In this document: one piece after another, positions 17,382 to 30,010 of the stretch | Position numbering within the stretch: the first letter of the stretch is position 1 | How the letters are laid out: the number at the start of each line of letters is the position of its first letter | DNA from: Aggregatilinea lenta | GTDB taxonomy: Bacteria; Chloroflexota; Anaerolineae; Aggregatilineales; Aggregatilineaceae | Direction: 5' to 3' | DNA: 64,000 nucleotides | Assembly (NCBI RefSeq): GCF_003569045.1 | Contig: NZ_BFCB01000003.1 | Coordinates: 248,001 to 312,000 of the forward strand | Made by a program: the position numbers and the translations under genes | Notes under the pieces: generated by a model | Told to the model about the DNA's origin: nothing | Seen by the model: only the letters and a program-made list of their open reading frames with translations | Database searches by the model: none

Positions 17382-18590
17382 ATGGTGGATACTCTCAAGT
17401 ATTACGAAGCGCTCGCCGAGCAGCTGGCGGCGCGCGGCGTCGACGTGGGTGCGGTGAAGCAGAAGCTGCACGTGCAGAAGATCGAGTTGCCGTCCTGGAG
17501 CTTTGGGAACGCGGGCACGCGCTTCCAGGTGTTTTCATGGCCGGGCGCGGCGCGTGATATTCACGAGCGCGTAGCCGACGCCGCCTTCGTCAACCGCCTG
17601 ACGGGCGTCGCGCCGTCGATTGCGATTCACATCCCGTGGGACAAGACCGAAGACTACAGCGCGCTCAAGCAGGAAGCCGCCAGCCAGGGCATCAGCATTG
17701 GGGCAGTAAACCCCAACTGGTTCCAAGAGCCGCAGTATAAGCTCGGCTCGTTGTGCAGCCCCGACGCGGGCGCGCGTGAAGAAGCCATCGCGCACGGCGT
17801 GGAGTGCATTGAGGTCATGAAAGCCGCGGACGCCACGCTGCTCAGCGTGTGGCTGGCCGACGGCACGAACTACACCGGGCAGGACGACATGCGCGAGCGT
17901 AAGCACCGCCTGGAGCACGGTCTAGCCGAGCTGTACAAGGAAATCCCCGACGGCAAGCGTATGCTGGTCGAGTACAAGTTCTTCGAGCCTGCGTTCTACA
18001 GCACCGACCTGCCGGACTGGGGCACGTCCTACGCGATGTGTCTCAAGCTGGGGCCGAAGGCGGAAGTGCTGGTCGATACCGGTCACCACGCGCATGGCAC
18101 CAACATCGCGCAGATCGTGATGTTCCTGCTGGACGAAGGTCGCCTGGGTGGATTCCACTTCAATTCGCGCAAGTACGCCGACGACGACCTGATCGTGGGC
18201 ACGGTCAATCCGCTCGAACTGTTCGAGATCTTCTACGAGTTGGTTCGCAGCGAGGACAAGGCCGCCAACGTGGCCTACATGCTCGACCAGAACTACAACA
18301 TCGAGGCCAAGATCGAAGCCGCGATCATTAGCGTGCTCAACTGCCAGGCCGCTTACGCCAAGGCGCTGCTGGTCAACCGCGCCAAACTGAGTGAGGCGCA
18401 GGCAGCGGGTGATGTGCTCGGCGCGCACCGCCTGATGATGGAAGCCTATGAGACGGACGTTCGCCCGCTGCTGGCGAAGGTCCGCGAGGAAAAGGGCATC
18501 GATCCCGATCCGATCGCAGCGCTGAAAGCCAGCGGCTACGAGAAGAAGATCGCCGAGGAACGCGGAACCTCCGGCAGCGGCTGGTCCTAA
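17382..18590 (+). CDS. rhaI: L-rhamnose isomerase, RhaI type
   Basis: The 402-residue TIM-barrel sugar isomerase interconverts L-rhamnose and L-rhamnulose. It carries the family pattern [15 protein letters not shown] near the N-terminus, IHIPWDK, the substrate/metal residues in [27 protein letters not shown] and [18 protein letters not shown]. This is the xylose-isomerase-like RhaI group (Pseudomonas stutzeri/Thermotoga type), not the E. coli RhaA family. Location between the importer and RhaEW agrees. The C-terminal 60 residues are helical and charged. Confidence 0.92.
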
Positions 18591-18625
18591 AGGCAGCGAT
18601 CAGCGGTTAGCCATAAAACCAATGA

Positions 18626-18652
18626 GCAGGGGCGGGTGCGAATCCGCCCCTT
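18626..18652. repeat. GGGGC palindrome repeat, variant core
   Basis: GCAGGGGCGGGTGCGAATCCGCCCCT has a diverged core (GGGT/ATCC) between the conserved GGGGC/GCCCC arms, and lies between rhaI and rhaEW inside the operon. Confidence 0.7.
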
Positions 18653-18756
18653 AACCCGCATTGCTGCGTGGGATTGGATTACACAGCAAACGCATATCAC
18701 CCGCACTCCTACAACCACACCTAAAAACACTTTTAGAGCAGAATAAGGGAGACAGA

Positions 18757-20820
18757 ATGCCACAGAACTTATGGAACGCGCAGGAAGCCGCCGCACTCCC
18801 CGACCTCGACGGCCTGGTATACCGCTCCAACTTGCTAGGCCGCGACCGGGCCGTAGTCAACATCTACGGCGGCAATACCTCCGCCAAACTCATGCTGCCC
18901 GATCACATGGGCCGCGAAACGGAAGTGCTGGCGGTCAAGGCCAGCGGTTCGGACGTGCTGACCATCGTTGCGAAGCAGTTCGCGCTGCTGAAGATGGCCG
19001 ATATCTACCCCCTGTTCGACCGCGAGGCGATGACCGACGAGGAGATGATCGAGTACCTCAGCTTTACCGCCTTCGAGCCGGGGCGCCCGCGCCAGAGCAT
19101 CGAAACGCTGCTGCACGCCTTCGTGCCGCACAAACACGTCGATCACACGCATCCTGACGTGGTGATCAGCCTCGCGTGCGCGCCGGATGGCGAAGCCGTC
19201 GCCCGCGATCTGTGGGGCGACCGCATGGCGTGGGTCCCGTATATCCGGCCTGGCTTCACGCTGAGCAAATGGATCGGCGGCAAGGTTCGCGACAATCCGA
19301 ACATCGAGTGCGTGGTCATGGGCAAGCACGGCCTCGTCACCTGGGGCGAAGAGTCCAAGAGCACTTACGATCACACCATCGCGATCATTCAGGAAGCCGA
19401 GGACTACATCGCGGCCAAGGCCCACGGCAAGCGCGTCTTTGGCGCGGTGAAGGTCGCCCCGCTGGACGCCGCGCAGCGCCGCGAGATTGCGATCCAGATC
19501 ATGCCGGTCATTCGCGGTGCGGTCAGCGACCGCCGCAGCGCGATCCTGGCCTTCGACGACGATCCGAAGGTGCTCGATTTCGTCAGCTACGAGCGCACAC
19601 CGGAAGTCTCGCAGGTGGGTGCGGCGTGCCCCGATCATCTTGTACACGTCAAGCCGCGCCCGCTGTTTGTGGACTGGGACCCCGCCGACGGCGTCGAGGC
19701 ACTGATCAACTCGCTGCCGGACCAGATCGAACAGTACAAGCAGGGCTACGCGGAATACTTCGAGTCGAACCGGGGCGAAGGCGATGTCATCAATGACCCG
19801 TCGCCGCGCGTGATCCTGGTGCCGGGCGTGGGCATGATCAATACCGGCAGCGACGCGCAGAACGCCGACGTCAGCCGCCAGTTGTACCACCGTGCGGTGG
19901 ATGTCATCGCGGGCAGCGAGGCGGTGGGTGGCTTCAACAGCCTGACGCCGTCCGAAGCGTTTGCCATCGAGTACTGGCCGCTGGAGTTGTACAAACTGCG
20001 CCTGAAGCCGCCGCCCCGTGAACTGGCGGGTAAGGTCGTGCTGATTACCGGCGCGGCGAGCGGCATTGGCCGTGCAACAGCCCTCCGGTTGGCGAAAGAA
20101 GACGCGCATGTCATCATCACCGACATCAACGCCGAGGCCGGGCAGCAGGTTGCGGACGAGATCAGCAAAAAGCACGGTCACCGGCGCGGCATGTTCCTGC
20201 CGATGAACGTCACCGACGAAAGCGCGGTCGAGGAAGCCTTCCGGCAGGCGGTGCTGGCCTACGGCGGCGTGGACGTGGTGATCAACAACGCAGGCATCGC
20301 GGGCGGCGCGCCGATCACCGAGACGACGCTGGCCGACTGGAACCGCAACCAGAGCATCCTTGCCACCGGCTATTTCCTGGTCGCGCGCGAGGCATTCCGC
20401 GTGCTTAAGGTCCAGGGCCGGGGCGGATCGCTGGTGTTCGTCGCCAGCAAGAACAGCATCGTGGCGGGCAAGGGGGCCAGCGCCTACAGCGCCGCGAAAG
20501 CCGCCGAGATCCATCTGGCGCGCTGCCTGGCGGAAGAGGGCGGCGAGTTTGGCATTCGCGTCAACAGCGTGCTGCCCGACGCGGTGATCCAGGGCAGCAG
20601 CATCTGGGACAGCGAATGGAAGGAAGCCCGCGCGAAGAACTACGGCATCGGTGTGGATGAGCTTCAGGACTTCTATGCCAAGCGCAACACGCTAAAGGTC
20701 GCCGTGCTGCCGGACGACATCGCGGAGGCGATCCTGTTCTTCGCCGGGCCGCGCAGCGCCAAAACCACGGGCGGCATGATCACCGTGGACGGTGGCCAGC
20801 CCGCCGCATACGTGCGGTAA
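18757..20820 (+). CDS. rhaEW: Bifunctional rhamnulose-1-phosphate aldolase / lactaldehyde dehydrogenase
   Basis: The 687-residue fusion has an N-terminal class II aldolase domain (about residues 1-420; YGGNTSAKL, VDHTHPDVVI with the metal His pair, GKHGLVTWG) and a C-terminal short-chain dehydrogenase (about 425-687; LITGAASGIGRAT, NNAGIAGG, and YSAAK with the catalytic Tyr and Lys). RhaE splits rhamnulose 1-phosphate to dihydroxyacetone phosphate and L-lactaldehyde; RhaW oxidises the latter to L-lactate. This fusion is established in rhamnose regulons of Chloroflexi and Bacillus. AAGGGAG precedes the ATG at 18757; the frame is open upstream without homology. Confidence 0.92.
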   Translation: MPQNLWNAQEAAALPDLDGLVYRSNLLGRDRAVVNIYGGNTSAKLMLPDHMGRETEVLAVKASGSDVLTIVAKQFALLKMADIYPLFDREAMTDEEMIEYLSFTAFEPGRPRQSIETLLHAFVPHKHVDHTHPDVVISLACAPDGEAVARDLWGDRMAWVPYIRPGFTLSKWIGGKVRDNPNIECVVMGKHGLVTWGEESKSTYDHTIAIIQEAEDYIAAKAHGKRVFGAVKVAPLDAAQRREIAIQIMPVIRGAVSDRRSAILAFDDDPKVLDFVSYERTPEVSQVGAACPDHLVHVKPRPLFVDWDPADGVEALINSLPDQIEQYKQGYAEYFESNRGEGDVINDPSPRVILVPGVGMINTGSDAQNADVSRQLYHRAVDVIAGSEAVGGFNSLTPSEAFAIEYWPLELYKLRLKPPPRELAGKVVLITGAASGIGRATALRLAKEDAHVIITDINAEAGQQVADEISKKHGHRRGMFLPMNVTDESAVEEAFRQAVLAYGGVDVVINNAGIAGGAPITETTLADWNRNQSILATGYFLVAREAFRVLKVQGRGGSLVFVASKNSIVAGKGASAYSAAKAAEIHLARCLAEEGGEFGIRVNSVLPDAVIQGSSIWDSEWKEARAKNYGIGVDELQDFYAKRNTLKVAVLPDDIAEAILFFAGPRSAKTTGGMITVDGGQPAAYVR

Positions 20821-22853: not shown

Positions 22854-24518
22854 ATGCCACGCACATTTAGATATGCCAGCCTCACCCTGTTGGTTATCGC
22901 GATGCTCGCCGCTGCTGTGATTTCCCCCATCACGACGGCGAAGGCCCAAGACTTTGAGCCGATGAAGCAGGAAGCGGAAAGCTGCGATTATGCTGCTGGT
23001 GCATACGGCCTCAAGTCGATTGAAGCGATCGATGAGCTGACCGTCAAGTTTACCCTGTGCCAGTCCGATCCGGCGTTCCCGACGAAAGCTGCCTTCTCCG
23101 CCTTCCCGATCAACAGCTCGGACTACCTGGAGCAGACCGGCGGCGGTGGCGATTTGGTCGACCAGCCGATTGGCACCGGCCCGTACGTGCTCGATACCTG
23201 GACCCGTGGCGACAGCCTGACCCTGCAGGCCTACGACGGCTACTGGGGCGAAGCGCCCAAGGAACCGACCCTGGTCTTCCGTTGGAACTCTGAAGGCGCC
23301 GCGCGCCTGAACGAACTCCAGGCGGGCACGGTGGATGGCATCGACAACCCCAGCCCCGATGACTTCGCGGCCATTCGTGAAAATTCAGACCTGACTCTCT
23401 ACGACCGCCCGCCGCTGAATATCTTCTACATCGGCTACAACAACACCGTGGAACCGTTCACCGACGTGCGCGTGCGCGAGGCCCTTGCGATGGGCATCGA
23501 CCGCCAGCGTCTGGTCGACAACTTCTACCCGGCTGGCTCGATCGTGGCGACCCAGTTCATGCCGCCTTCCATCTTCGGCTACACGCCGGAAGTCTCCTGG
23601 TACAACTTCGATCCTGAAGCTGCGCGGGCCTTGCTGGCTGACGCGGGCTACCCGGATGGGTTCGAAATCGAACTGTCCTATCGCGACGTCGTCCGTCCGT
23701 ACCTGCCCGAGCCGGGCCGCGTGGCGGAAGACCTGCAGGCGCAGCTCTCTGAGAACCTGGGCGTCACCGTGAACATCAACGTGATGGAATCCGGTGCGTT
23801 CATCGACGCCGCTAACGCGGGCGAGCTGCCGTTCTACCTGCTGGGATGGAACGCCGACTATCCTGACGCGACGAACTTCCTGGACTACCACTTCGGTTCC
23901 GGCGCGACCCCGCAGTTCGGTGACAAGTTCCCCGAAATCACCGAGCCGCTCGCGGCAGCCGGTCAGTTGAGCGACCCGCAGGCCCGTCTGGAGCTGTACG
24001 TCCAGGCCAACCAGGCGATCAAGGACCTCGTTCCGATGATCCCGGTGGCGCACGGCGCCTCGGCGACCGCGTTCCGTTCGGCCATCACCGGCGCGCACGC
24101 CAGCCCGCTGGGCAACGAATACTTCGCCGTGGTGGAAAACCCGGATGCCGACCAGCTGGTCTGGATGCAGAACGCCGAACCGATCGGCCTGTACTGCGCG
24201 GACGAGACCGACGGCGAATCGCTGCGTGCCTGCGAGCAGATCAGCGAAGCACTGCTGTCCTACGAAGTGGGCGGCACGGCAGTTCAGCCGGGTCTGGCCG
24301 TGAGCTACGAAGGCAATGACGACGCGACTGAGTGGACCTTCCACCTGCGCGAGGGCGTCACCTTCCACGATGGCTCGACGCTGGACGCCAACGACGTGGT
24401 CCTGTCCTACGTGGTCCAGTGGGATGCTTCCAACCCGCTGCACGTGGGTCGCGTGGGCGACTTCGCCTACTTCAACGCGCTGTTCGGTTCGTTCCTGAAC
24501 GCACCGGCTGCCGAGTAG
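22854..24518 (+). CDS. Family-5 substrate-binding protein with circularly permuted sequence order
   Basis: The 554-residue protein has a signal peptide (residues 1-32, ...TTAKAQ). The mature N-terminus starts inside what is normally the middle of a DppA/OppA fold (ELTVKFTLCQSDPAFP near 61-76, then PIGTGPYVLDTW and DGYWGEAPKEP). It runs through the usual C-terminal half (DVRVREALAMGIDRQRLV, AGYPDGFEIEL, LGWNADYPDATNFLDYHF, MIPVAHGAS). After residue about 430 come the elements that normally open the mature protein: LVWMQNAEPIGLYCADETDG, EALLSYEVGG, WTFHLREGVTFHDGSTLDAN-DVV. All parts of the fold are present once, so this is a permutation rather than a truncation. It would deliver peptides or other solutes to the permeases at 24903 and 25989. 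Confidence 0.9.
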   Translation: MPRTFRYASLTLLVIAMLAAAVISPITTAKAQDFEPMKQEAESCDYAAGAYGLKSIEAIDELTVKFTLCQSDPAFPTKAAFSAFPINSSDYLEQTGGGGDLVDQPIGTGPYVLDTWTRGDSLTLQAYDGYWGEAPKEPTLVFRWNSEGAARLNELQAGTVDGIDNPSPDDFAAIRENSDLTLYDRPPLNIFYIGYNNTVEPFTDVRVREALAMGIDRQRLVDNFYPAGSIVATQFMPPSIFGYTPEVSWYNFDPEAARALLADAGYPDGFEIELSYRDVVRPYLPEPGRVAEDLQAQLSENLGVTVNINVMESGAFIDAANAGELPFYLLGWNADYPDATNFLDYHFGSGATPQFGDKFPEITEPLAAAGQLSDPQARLELYVQANQAIKDLVPMIPVAHGASATAFRSAITGAHASPLGNEYFAVVENPDADQLVWMQNAEPIGLYCADETDGESLRACEQISEALLSYEVGGTAVQPGLAVSYEGNDDATEWTFHLREGVTFHDGSTLDANDVVLSYVVQWDASNPLHVGRVGDFAYFNALFGSFLNAPAAE

Positions 24519-24902: not shown

Positions 24903-25979
24903 ATGGTAGGTTATCTGGCCCGGCGCCTGGCCCTCTCAATTCCGGTCTTGTTGGGCATCTTGTTCGTTACCTTCAGCCTGGCGCGGCTGCTGCCCGGCGA
25001 TCCGTGCCGGTCGGCACTGGGCGAGCGCGCCACACCGCAGATTTGCGATGCGTTCAACGAGCGCTATGGCCTGAACGACCCGATCCCGGAGCAGTTCCGC
25101 ATCTACATCCGTGACGTGCTGCACGGTGATCTGGGCAGCTCGATCAAGTTTGGCCGCCCGGTGAACGAGCTGCTCGTCGAGCGGCTGCCGGTCACGGTCG
25201 AGCTGTCGTTTTACGCGATGATGTTCGCGATCCTTGTTGGGGTTCCCCTGGGCGTCGTCTCGGCCTACTATCACAACTCCGGCATCGACGTAGGTACGAT
25301 GATCGGCGCGAACGTCGGCGTCTCGATGCCGGTCTTCTGGCTGGGACTGATGCTGTCGTATCTGTTTGGTGTGGTGCTCAAAGACACTCCGTTGTGGCTG
25401 CCGCCCAGCGGACGTCTGAGCGCAGGGCTGGCGATCGAGCCGTTTTATCAGGCATGGGGCATTCACGTTTCCGACACGTCCTCGTTCACAGTCCCGGGCT
25501 TCATCGCCAACATCAACACGCTCAACGCGCTGTTGGTCGGCGACTGGCACGCGTTCGGCGACGCGCTCCAGCACATGATTCTGCCCGCCGTGGCGCTGGG
25601 CACGATCCCCATGTCGTTGATCGCGCGCATGACGCGCTCCAGCCTGCTTGAAGTGCTGGGCCTGAACTATGTACGCACGGCGCGTGCCAAGGGCGTGCAC
25701 GAGGTCGGCGTGGTGATGCGCCACGGGCTGCGCAACGCGATGCTGCCGGTCGTGACCATCATCGGGCTGTCGCTTGGCTCGCTGCTAAGCGGCGCGGTAC
25801 TCACCGAGACGATCTTTGGGCTGTCGGGCGTGGGGCGTGTGCTGTACGATGCCATCACAGGCCGCGATTACACCGTGGTGCAGGCGTTCACGCTGATCAT
25901 CGCGGTGATCTTTGTGTTTATCAACCTGGTCGTCGATACGCTGTATGCCTATCTCGACCCTCGCATTCGACTCGAGTAA
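24903..25979 (+). CDS. Dipeptide/oligopeptide-type ABC transporter permease, DppB/OppB family
   Basis: The 358-residue permease begins MVGYLARRLALSIPVLLGI with FSLARLLPGDP, as in DppB. It has about six membrane segments and the EAA-loop region VRTARAKGVHEVGVVMRHGLRNAMLP, then AVLTETIFGLSGVGRVLYDAI. An extra extracytoplasmic stretch (about residues 162-220, with DTSSFTVPGF) lengthens the loop after TM3. It pairs with the downstream OppC-type subunit, whose start lies 9 bases after its stop. Confidence 0.92.
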   Translation: MVGYLARRLALSIPVLLGILFVTFSLARLLPGDPCRSALGERATPQICDAFNERYGLNDPIPEQFRIYIRDVLHGDLGSSIKFGRPVNELLVERLPVTVELSFYAMMFAILVGVPLGVVSAYYHNSGIDVGTMIGANVGVSMPVFWLGLMLSYLFGVVLKDTPLWLPPSGRLSAGLAIEPFYQAWGIHVSDTSSFTVPGFIANINTLNALLVGDWHAFGDALQHMILPAVALGTIPMSLIARMTRSSLLEVLGLNYVRTARAKGVHEVGVVMRHGLRNAMLPVVTIIGLSLGSLLSGAVLTETIFGLSGVGRVLYDAITGRDYTVVQAFTLIIAVIFVFINLVVDTLYAYLDPRIRLE

Positions 25980-25988
25980 AACACCATC

Positions 25989-27923
25989 ATGCAACAAACA
26001 GACTCCGTACCTCCTAACTTAGATCTTGCGCATCCCGACATCGTGGTGGTGTCGCGCCCATCCAAAAGCCTGTGGCGCGAGACGCTTGAGCGGCTGCTGC
26101 GTAAGCCGTCGGCCATCGTCGGACTGTCGATTCTGAGCTTTCTGATCGTGGTCGCCGTGTTTGCGCCCCTGATCGCCACGCACGATCCGCTGGCCGTGCT
26201 GCTCGACACGCCGGAAGAGGGCGTCGTCAAGCGTATGTCGCCGTGCATCCACCTGCTCGGCTGCCCCACCGCCGGGGACGAGCTGGTGCGCGTGAGCATG
26301 GATGCGCCCATCGACGTGAGTGCGCTCAGCGCCACCAGCGCGCTGATGCTGACGGCCAGTGGCACGACGGTGGACATCTGGAACGCCGATAGTGGTAAGC
26401 CGGTGGCGAATTTCGAGCTGGAGAACCCCGTAACGGCGGTAAGCTGGAGTCCCAACGACCAGAAGATCCTCGCCGCGACCACTAACGGCGACATTGTCGT
26501 GTGGGACATGAACACGCGCTCGCTGAATCGCACGCTGGAGCACGAGGGCGGCGCGACGTACATCGCGTGGAACGCCGATGGCACGCGCTTCCTCAGCGCG
26601 GACGATCACACCGTGCGCCTGTGGGATGCGCTGTCGTGGAATCAAGTTGCGGCCATTGACCTGGACGGCGAGCGCATCGCGTCGGCGTGGAACACCAACG
26701 GCACGCTGGTCATGACGGCCAGCGGCAGCACGGTCAAGCTGTGGAACGCCTTCACCGGCACGGAAGTGACGACGCTGGAGCACGACGCGCCGCTGACGAG
26801 CGCCGTGTTCAACAAGGCGAGCACCAGCATCCTGAGCACCAGCAGCAATACGCTGCACATCTGGAACGCGAATTCGTACACCGAAGACCGCGTGATCGAG
26901 TACGACGGCGATCTGTCGTACGGCGCGTGGAGTGAGGATCTGTCGCGCGGGGTTATCCGCGTGATGGCCACCAGCGGCGATACCGTCGTAGTGTGGAACG
27001 CGCGCACGGGCGATCTGCTGCTGGAACTGCCGCACGGCGAGCCGGTGGTGAGCGTCGCCAGCAGCCCGCTCGCCACGCGCATCATGACCCAGGGCGAGCA
27101 CCAGATCCGTGTGTGGGACGCGACCAACGGCGAGAACATCCTCACCTTTGATCGCGACGAGCCGGTGACCAAAGCCGCCTGGGAAAGCACGGGTGGCGCG
27201 GTGCTGGTGACCGCCGGAGATCAGCTCTCGGCGGTGAAGACGAGCGACAAGCAGTATCTGATGGGCATCGACGGCAACGTGCGCGACCAGTTCAGCCGCG
27301 TGGTGTACGGCGCACGGTTGTCGCTGATGGTCGGCATCACGACCGTAACCTTTGCCGTGATCATCGGCGTGTTCACGGGCGCGGTGGCCGGATACCTGGG
27401 CGGCTGGCCGGACAACATCATCATGCGCGTCATGGACGTGGTGCTGGCCTTCCCCTCGCTGATCCTGGCGATCGCAGTGGTGACGGTGCTTGGTCCCGGT
27501 CTGATCAACGCGCTGCTGGCGATCTCGATCGTGTCCATCCCCGCCTATGCGCGCGTGGCGCGGTCCGGCGTGCTGGCCGTCAAGGAAGAAGACTACGTGA
27601 TGGCCGACCGCGTGCTGGGCGTTGCGCCGGTGCGCATCCTGTTCCGGCGGATTCTGCCCAACGCGCTCGCTCCGCTGATCGTGCAGGCCACGCTGGGCAT
27701 CGGCACGGCCATCCTCGACGCGGCGGCGCTGTCGTTCCTGGGCCTGGGCGCGCAGCCGCCGACGCCGGAGTGGGGCGCAATGCTCGGCGCGGAGCGCAAC
27801 CAGATCTTCACCGCGCCGCATCTGGTATTTTATCCCGGTATCGCCATTATGATCACGGTCCTGGCGTTCAACCTGTTGGGCGACGGCCTGCGGGACGCGC
27901 TCGACCCGCGCCTGGACCGCTGA
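25989..27923 (+). CDS. OppC/DppC-type ABC permease with inserted WD40 beta-propeller
   Basis: The 644-residue product is about twice the normal length. Residues 1-90 are a normal OppC N-terminus with TM1 (SAIVGLSILSFLIVVAVFAP) and THDPLA. Residues about 425-644 are the normal remainder (LMGIDGNVRDQFSRVVYGAR, five membrane segments, EAA loop near 519-560, C-terminal GDGLRDALDPRL). Between them lie about 330 residues of WD-type repeats. Motifs ending W-(N/D) occur at 131, 172, 212, 252, 292, 336 and 376, spaced about 40, with a degenerate eighth unit near 413. The insertion sits in the TM1-TM2 loop, which faces outward in this family, so the propeller should lie next to the binding-protein docking face. 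The frame is continuous with no stop or frameshift. Confidence 0.92.
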   Translation: MQQTDSVPPNLDLAHPDIVVVSRPSKSLWRETLERLLRKPSAIVGLSILSFLIVVAVFAPLIATHDPLAVLLDTPEEGVVKRMSPCIHLLGCPTAGDELVRVSMDAPIDVSALSATSALMLTASGTTVDIWNADSGKPVANFELENPVTAVSWSPNDQKILAATTNGDIVVWDMNTRSLNRTLEHEGGATYIAWNADGTRFLSADDHTVRLWDALSWNQVAAIDLDGERIASAWNTNGTLVMTASGSTVKLWNAFTGTEVTTLEHDAPLTSAVFNKASTSILSTSSNTLHIWNANSYTEDRVIEYDGDLSYGAWSEDLSRGVIRVMATSGDTVVVWNARTGDLLLELPHGEPVVSVASSPLATRIMTQGEHQIRVWDATNGENILTFDRDEPVTKAAWESTGGAVLVTAGDQLSAVKTSDKQYLMGIDGNVRDQFSRVVYGARLSLMVGITTVTFAVIIGVFTGAVAGYLGGWPDNIIMRVMDVVLAFPSLILAIAVVTVLGPGLINALLAISIVSIPAYARVARSGVLAVKEEDYVMADRVLGVAPVRILFRRILPNALAPLIVQATLGIGTAILDAAALSFLGLGAQPPTPEWGAMLGAERNQIFTAPHLVFYPGIAIMITVLAFNLLGDGLRDALDPRLDR

Positions 27924-27956
27924 GTGAGATTGAATGAGATCGAGTTTAGGGACAGC

Positions 27957-28997
27957 ATGAGCGAACAGCAGAACGGCAACACTCACAAGGAAACGTCTTC
28001 TGAGCCTCCCTTGTTGGAGGTCCGGGATCTACGCACGTACTTTTTCACCCGCGAAGGCACGGTCAAAGCCGTGGATGGGGTGAGCTTCGAGGTGCAGCGC
28101 GGCGAGATTCGCGGCATCGTCGGCGAATCCGGCTGCGGTAAGAGCATGACCGCGCTCTCGATCCTGCGGCTGGTCGATAAGCCGGGCAAGATCGTTTCCG
28201 GCGAGGTATGCTTCAAGGGCGAAGACCTGCTCAAAAAATCATCGCGGGAAATGACTGAGGTGCGTGGCGAGCAGATCAGCATGATCTTTCAGGAGCCGAA
28301 GTCGTCGCTGAACCCGGTGTTCCGGGTGGGCACGCAGCTCGTGGAAGTGCTCAAGGTCCATAACGTCGCTAAGCGCAAAGCCAACGAGCGGCGCGCGGTC
28401 GAGCTGCTGCGCGAGGTCGGCATCCCCGACCCGGAGCGGCGCGTGAGCAACTACCCGCACGAGATGTCGGGCGGCATGGCGCAGCGCGTGATGATCGCAA
28501 TGGGCATGGCGCTCGCGCCGGATCTGCTCATCGCGGACGAGCCGACCACCGCGCTCGACGTGACGATCCAGGCGCAGGTGCTGGACCTGATCCGCCGCCT
28601 GCGTGACGAGCACGGTATGGCGGTTATGCTCATCACGCACGACATGGGCGTCGTGGCGGAAATGGCCGACATCGTGACCGTGATGTACGCCGGGACTGCC
28701 GTCGAAGAGGCGGCGACCGAGCCGCTGTTCGACGCGCCGCTGCACCCCTACACTCAGGGGTTGATCGCGTCGATCCCGGTGATGGGCCAGATCAAGGAGC
28801 GGCTGGACGTGATCCCCGGCATGGTCCCCAACCTGATCGACATGCCGCCGGGCTGCCGCTTCGCGCCGCGCTGCCGCGCCCGCGTCGAGCACGGCCTGAC
28901 GCGCTGCGAGGTCGAGGAGCCGCACATGATCGAGGCCCGGCCTGGGCACTACGTCCGGTGCTGGCTGTATGAAGACGGAGGCGAGAATAACGCATGA
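27957..28997 (+). CDS. Dipeptide/oligopeptide ABC transporter ATPase, DppD/OppD family
   Basis: The 346-residue ATPase has Walker [10 protein letters not shown]-loop [11 protein letters not shown], signature MSGGMAQRV, Walker [14 protein letters not shown]-loop LITHDMG, and the family-specific C-terminal extension [13 protein letters not shown]...GLTRC with Cys residues (in relatives a 4Fe-4S or zinc site). I chose the ATG at 27957; an upstream in-frame ATG-like start at 27924 overlaps nothing but lacks homology. It overlaps the next gene by four bases. Confidence 0.93.
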
Positions 28998-30010
28998 GCG
29001 AGCCTCAGAACCTGTTAGAAGTCCGGGGATTGAAGGTCCATTTTCCCGTCAAAAGCAGCCTGCTCAAGCGCACCATCGGCGTGGTCCAGGCCGTGGACGG
29101 CATCGACCTCGACGTGAAGCGCGGCGAGATCCTGGGGCTGGTGGGCGAATCCGGCTGCGGCAAGACGACGGCGGGCCGCGCGATCCTGCGCCTGATCGAA
29201 GCAACAGCAGGATCGGTCTTTTTTGATGGTGTGGACCTGTTCAAGCTGAGCCAGGCCGAGATGAAGCCGTACCGCGCCGACATGCAGCTCGTGTTTCAGG
29301 ACCCGTACTCGTCGCTCGATCCGCGCTCGAAGGTGGGCGACATCGTGGGCGAGGGGCTGCGCGTGCACGGCGTGAACGACGCCGGCGAACGCCGCGAGCG
29401 CGTGCTGAAAGCGTTGCAACTGGTCGGCCTGACGGAGGCGCACATGCGGCGCTTCCCGCACGAGTTTTCCGGCGGGCAGCGGCAGCGCATCGGCATCGCG
29501 CGGGCGCTGGTGCTCAACCCCAAGTTCATTGTGTGTGACGAGCCGGTGTCCGCGCTGGACGTCTCGATCCAGTCGCAGGTGCTGAATCTGCTCAAGGACC
29601 TTCAGGAAGAACTCGACCTCACGCTGCTGTTCATCGCGCACGACTTGAGCGTGGTGGAGCACCTGTGCAACCGCGTGGCGGTGATGTACCTGGGCAAGAT
29701 CGTCGAGGTTAGCAGCCGCGAGCAGTTATTCGGCAGCCCGCAGCATCCCTACACCCAGGCGCTGATGTCCGCGATCCCGGTGGCGGACCCGAAGGCCAAG
29801 CGCGACCGCATCATCCTGCAGGGCGATCCGCCCAGCCCGCTGAATCCGCCGCCCGGCTGCCGCTTCCATACGCGCTGCCAGGAGGCGATCGAGGTATGCT
29901 CGCAGGTCGAGCCGCTGCTGGTGGACCTGAGCGTGAATCACCTGTGCGCGTGCCACGTGCGCGAGGCGCAGATGAAGCAGGCCCGCGCGGAGTCCTTGCA
30001 ACTAGTGTAG
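28994..30010 (+). CDS. Dipeptide/oligopeptide ABC transporter ATPase, DppF/OppF family
   Basis: The 338-residue ATPase has Walker [10 protein letters not shown]-loop [12 protein letters not shown], signature [15 protein letters not shown], Walker [14 protein letters not shown]-loop FIAHDLSVV, and the C-terminal [13 protein letters not shown]...VC cysteines. With the DppD-type subunit it forms the heterodimeric motor. It is the last gene of the importer operon; a palindromic repeat 24 bases downstream could form the 3' hairpin. Confidence 0.93.

Follow-up and report, generated by a model that had tools for sequence, protein, structure and literature searches.

The window, the whole stretch of 64,000 nucleotides analysed here, carries a complete Dpp-type gene set in which a substrate-binding protein (SBP), a second permease and two ATPases adjoin an OppC-type permease, WD40-OppC, that displays a WD40 propeller in the loop between its first two transmembrane segments (TM1-TM2). 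The features are the following.

22854..24518, + strand: SBP, circularly permuted DppA type, SBP_bac_5 (Pfam, DppA alignment)
24903..25979, + strand: OppB/DppB-type permease, GER at residues 40-42 (Pfam)
25989..27923, + strand: WD40-OppC, DppC/OppC-type permease with inserted propeller, 644 aa (continuous open reading frame, Pfam, orthologues)
25989..26264, + strand: residues 1-92, with the N-terminus, TM1 and the first part of the outside loop, ending at C92 (OppC_N; loop motif PCIHLLGC)
26265..27260, + strand: inserted WD40 propeller, predicted eight-bladed, residues 93-424 (boundary from uninserted relatives)
27261..27920, + strand: remaining permease with GIDGNVRD elbow, TM2-TM6 and EAA loop, residues 425-644 (BPD_transp_1)
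27924..28997, + strand: OppD/DppD ATPase (Pfam, operon comparison)
28994..30010, + strand: OppF/DppF ATPase (Pfam, operon comparison)

The gene at 22854, which an earlier note on this DNA had called a subunit, encodes the SBP and not a permease subunit according to Pfam and to its match with DppA. The order SBP-OppB-WD40-OppC-OppD-OppF is found in 8 of the 10 genomes that carry the fusion; in G013 and G017 (L311 and L312) the adjacent SBP gene was lost from the fusion operon, and a 73-74% identical copy is located on another contig. No conserved neighbour beyond the transporter genes is common to the fusion loci. The window also displays a rhamnose isomerase-like gene and, directly after it, a fusion of an aldolase with a short-chain dehydrogenase (17382-20820); this arrangement is not kept beside the transporter in the remaining genomes that carry WD40-OppC.

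The DppABCDF system of Escherichia coli (PDB 8z1v and 8z1y; PMC12136057) has the same subunit set, the same kinds of genes, the same DppC core and the same SBP clamp residues. The scoop residues of E. coli DppB are E41 and R42 (PMC12136057), and the OppB of the window has Glu 41 and Arg 42 under the same numbers, a match of position and sequence that makes these two putative scoop residues. In contrast, E. coli DppC has a short TM1-TM2 loop where the OppC of the window has a 332-residue propeller, and E. coli DppA is unpermuted while the SBP of the window is circularly permuted.

A propeller inside an intact permease

The 25989-27923 frame is single, unbroken and 644 aa long on the + strand. 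OppC_N is found at residues 27-67 (43.6 bits, Pfam cut-off 23.9) and BPD_transp_1 at residues 460-643 (113.9 bits, cut-off 26.4), both above threshold; the permease is intact on either side of the insertion, as first proposed. WD40 repeats are found mid-protein (78.5 bits, cut-off 27). The best match for the core (residues 422-643) is E. coli DppC 78-299, with an E value of 1.9e-71. The alignment behind the full-length model consisted of uninserted OppCs. Sequences with WD40 taken from a viral contig had aligned poorly and were left out. The eighth blade is disordered in this model, and its top Foldseek matches are DppC chains (TMt 0.76, rmsd 1.5 to 8z1w_B).

The insertion site was read from uninserted relatives. 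Across the phylum, OppCs that adjoin a permuted-type SBP display a short conserved loop, PCIHLLGCPxxxPQHxMGxDGNxRD, while the loop of the window runs from PCIHLLGCP through the propeller to QYLMGIDGNVRD, the propeller interrupting it between CIHLLGCP and QYLMGIDGN. By comparison with the uninserted copies, the insert comprises residues 93-424 (bases 26265-27260). The earlier estimate of about 330 residues in this loop agrees with the 332 obtained by alignment, and its end at residue 424 stands, while its start, given as about residue 90, moves to 93. The loop cysteines C86 and C92 are shared by inserted and uninserted copies, and the insertion thus preserves the frame of the loop itself; the two may form a disulfide. 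The junction residues P93, A95, G96, D97, K417, T418 and Y423 are invariant in nine aligned fusion copies.

With 644 aa and a 332-aa insert, WD40-OppC falls outside the short-loop pattern of DppC/OppC subunits (~290-330 aa). The concern that the fusion might be an artefact of assembly or annotation, or a join of two neighbouring genes, can be dismissed as negligible: nothing was found in its favour, and ten separately assembled genomes have the frame unbroken, with 48-72% identity to the window copy; orthologues in ten genomes are neither chance nor misassembly, and their in-frame fusion excludes two separate genes. A DppC/OppC permease with a complete propeller in its TM1-TM2 loop is therefore a real observation, and as to architecture and location alone, a propeller in the outside TM1-TM2 loop of an intact importer permease, we are nearly certain.

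Blade number, origin and conservation of the propeller

Tryptophans at 131, 172, 212, 252, 292, 336 and 376, with spacings of 41, 40, 40, 40, 44 and 40, are all present, as listed in the earlier note, which had read them as seven blades. A blade profile derived from five of them detects eight units instead, the last of which (392-421) is weak, and blade 8 has no Trp. When predicted alone, the insert comes out as a propeller of 31 strands, seven full blades plus three strands of an eighth (mean pLDDT 74, pTM 0.67); the closed ring of four-stranded blades is a feature of the prediction, in which the N-terminal closing strand is not directly visible. The top-ranked structural neighbours of this model are ODA16 (VIA Z 33.5 over 313 residues), TBLR1, Rsa4, Sqt1, Fbw7 and Tako8, with near full-length matches. 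We take ODA16, TBLR1, Rsa4, Sqt1 and Fbw7 to be eight-bladed WD40 proteins, and Tako8 is a designed protein, eight-bladed according to its title. The profile, the model and the nearest solved folds all give eight blades, which is the number predicted here. While ODA16, TBLR1, Rsa4, Fbw7 and Tako8 share the eight-bladed WD40 fold, they are soluble intracellular or designed proteins, whereas the propeller of the window interrupts a polytopic permease and is predicted to lie outside.

The regular spacing of the repeats had suggested a recent expansion. This is excluded by the blade identities, which average 22-27% within one protein (~25%) versus 53% between orthologous blades; the blades therefore diverged before the species did, and the repeats are old.

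The fusion is present in ten genomes, namely 9 of the 18 sampled in the family of the window (f1) and one from another family of the same order (G046, f8). Whole-protein identity to the window copy is 48-72% across the orthologues; the other f1 fusions are 67-72% identical to it, except G011, while the G046 fusion, at 48-52%, lies in the same operon. On a permease tree from which the propeller columns were removed, the ten fusions form one clade (SH-aLRT 99) that adjoins OppCs lacking the insert, from f3 and from other Anaerolineae. One insertion explains this single clade, and on the tree the gain of the propeller reads as one event. Among the 18 sampled f1 genomes none was found that has the operon and lacks the insert, and the nine without the fusion are also without the permuted SBP. 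Scans of viral contigs found no fusion relatives, and a scan for a propeller next to a TM2 region in 396 genomes of the class, with few candidates scored per genome and most f1 genomes not included, returned the window's own genome only, so that distant fusions may well exist beyond its reach.

Between orthologues, the propeller is 49-56% identical and the membrane domain 88-91%. In the closest pair (G013/G017) the propeller has a dN/dS of 0.063 and the permease one of 0.020; in more distant pairs the propeller reaches 0.28-0.47, with dS near saturation. By these sequence measures the propeller is under purifying selection yet evolves much faster than the permease. All eight units are kept across the ten genomes. 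The G011 orthologue (L137:11022-13334), with 770 aa, has its propeller broken by a ~120-residue Asp/Glu-rich stretch.

These data bear on the idea that the propeller is a tolerated insertion with no selected role of its own, accepted by the loop since WD40 termini lie close together. The fast divergence of the propeller and the acidic interruption in G011 would fit such an insertion, but purifying selection in the closest pair, eight units retained in ten genomes with conserved junctions, and the lack of any f1 genome found to have kept the operon and lost the insert all speak against it, and we consider it very unlikely.

Membrane side and the permuted binding protein

The solved E. coli complex (PMC12136057) places the TM1-TM2 loop of DppC in the periplasm, the side on which DppA sits as a cap over DppB and DppC. 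With 43 D+E versus 20 K+R the insert is acidic, and it has no Cys; the N-terminus of WD40-OppC and its EAA loop are positively charged. A position of the propeller outside the membrane, beside the SBP docking site, follows from homology to DppC and is consistent with the charge, as had been predicted from family topology; on the same two lines, a cytoplasmic propeller was rejected. Further WD40 proteins encoded in this genome have a signal peptide or else a TM anchor plus a C-terminal extracytoplasmic domain (L018:1159-2961 and L019:979-2529), and the C-terminal part of the one with the signal peptide looks cytochrome-like (CxxCH). Extracytoplasmic WD40 modules are therefore in use in this lineage.

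The two halves of the SBP are swapped relative to DppA: residues 54-426 correspond to DppA 153-531 and residues 428-543 to DppA 24-146. Chloroflexota SBPs that adjoin uninserted OppCs can be aligned with it over the full length, while those SBPs of other phyla that matched in two pieces did so in swapped order. A permuted SBP of this kind is encoded by 54 of the 400 Chloroflexota genomes sampled. Since it is widespread, including beside uninserted OppCs, the permutation is older than the propeller insertion. No description of a permuted DppA-type SBP was found. Tp0684 (MglB-2; PMC4990184) is likewise a naturally circularly permuted binding protein of an ABC importer; however, it is a sugar-binding protein of another cluster, and the SBP of the window is of the DppA/SBP_bac_5 type with a different cut point. 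The peptide-clamp residues are kept (R281 = DppA R383, D335 = DppA D436) and both are invariant in the Chloroflexota alignment; given this conservation the importer looks functional, and from the subunit set and the clamp residues it is predicted to transport di- or oligopeptides.

The SBP of the window has an SPase I-type signal and no lipobox, as do all fusion-clade SBPs with a complete N-terminus. The SBPs of the nearest uninserted relatives (G150, L050, L051, L055) have a lipobox, as does the permuted SBP in most of 20 genomes of the phylum. Three lipobox labels have to be read with care: the match in L276 lies outside the signal peptide, the true lipobox of L274 is VTAC, the second match in the stretch, and that of L300 is a false match upstream of the start. 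By family, the lipobox is absent from the permuted SBPs of f1, f2 and f7 (e.g. L052, L053, L293, L295) and present elsewhere in the phylum and in f3; f2 and f7 thus combine permuted SBPs lacking a lipobox with no propeller. On the SBP tree the anchor state is explained by one change, the direction of which depends on the root. A loss of the anchor on the same branch as the gain of the propeller was considered and set aside, as this root dependence does not allow it to be established.

Roles considered for the propeller and other loop insertions

We tentatively favour, at a confidence somewhat below even, an overall explanation in which a complete Dpp-type peptide importer gained an eight-bladed propeller once, in the outside TM1-TM2 loop of its OppC, and in which this propeller would act as a protein-interaction platform on the outer side of the translocator, holding or orienting the permuted, non-lipidated SBP there; contact with the SBP is inferred. 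The narrower proposal, in which the propeller serves the importer as a built-in receptor for its soluble, unanchored permuted SBP and took over its holding at the translocator, is rather doubtful. To our knowledge, holding of an SBP by a propeller is not a known solution in ABC importers.

The earlier note had offered an extra receptor, a docking platform or a wall anchor as possible roles, and the sequence does not tell them apart. Docking or holding is slightly favoured over the other two because the lipid anchor seen on the SBPs of the nearest uninserted relatives is missing from the fusion-clade SBPs, a lipobox comparison that, as support for holding, rests on one propeller gain. The number of membranes in Chloroflexota, one or two, is a matter of debate in which gene content favours one (PMC8871954), and the argument for holding would be stronger with a single membrane. 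Against holding, f2 and f7 keep an unanchored permuted SBP without a propeller, which is therefore not needed to keep such an SBP. Besides, conservation within the propeller is highest in the structural a-b turns (0.71) and lower in the top-face loops (0.42-0.51). The top-face loops are the usual binding face of WD40 propellers, and that they are not its best-conserved part counts against a platform that holds the SBP.

Rapid divergence of the top loops could instead suit a varied ligand, as would be expected of an extra receptor for extracellular peptides, proteins or polymers, thereby concentrating substrate or giving specificity. Peptide binding is common in WD40 propellers, and the structural neighbours WDR5, Fbw7 and TBLR1 are cases in point. 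Other OppC paralogues of the order also have a different outside domain, DUF4397, in the equivalent loop. The importer, however, is already equipped with an SBP whose peptide-clamp residues are intact, and the conservation analysis identified no conserved pocket or nameable ligand site in the propeller; we regard an extra receptor as unlikely. Anchoring or localising the transporter, at the cell wall, a surface polymer or another membrane-protein complex, would fit the outside WD40 modules of L018 and L019, but the fusion loci share no neighbour gene beyond the transporter and Pfam finds no wall-binding signature in the insert, which makes such a role quite unlikely.

In f7, six OppC paralogues of 513-527 aa (L215, L216, L217, L218, L219, L220) have a ~200-aa insert in the TM1-TM2 loop, and DUF4397 (PF14344) was found in it in all three tested (L215, L217 and L219; Pfam E 1.2e-13 to 1.5e-9). 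A second WD40-OppC with canonical WD40 repeats is encoded in G010 (L143:2554-4005), its N-terminus being lost at the contig end. It lies elsewhere on the permease tree, its join being therefore independent of the fusion in the window, and its insert presumably sits in the same loop. Four 477-aa OppCs of f8 (L153, L154, L155, L156) display extra N-terminal TM segments and a ~150-aa domain before the permease core, and L177 (542 aa) and L221 (505 aa) are OppCs with long multi-TM N-terminal extensions. The OppC TM1-TM2 loop appears to accept folded outside domains repeatedly, with WD40 in two OppC lineages and DUF4397 in another.

MalF P2 of the maltose importer contacts its binding protein MalE, according to literature cited in PMC3150292, and the proposed holding of the SBP by the propeller would be comparable to this contact. 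Like the propeller of the window, P2 is a sizeable folded domain borne by an outside loop in the permease of a type I importer. The loop, the fold and the transporter family are different, making this an analogy and not kinship. MalF P2 is not a propeller. In the open-access literature we found no description of a WD40 domain in an ABC permease; the components are all of known kinds, and their combination seems new as far as that literature allows this to be checked.

In the usual description of ABC importers, the outside loops of the permease are small and the SBP is separate, either free or lipid-anchored. Here, a whole interaction domain lies inside the permease, is kept in ten genomes and stands beside a circularly permuted SBP. 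The system offers a natural test case for how an SBP without a lipid anchor stays at its transporter. It also singles out the OppC TM1-TM2 loop as a site that accepts folded domains.
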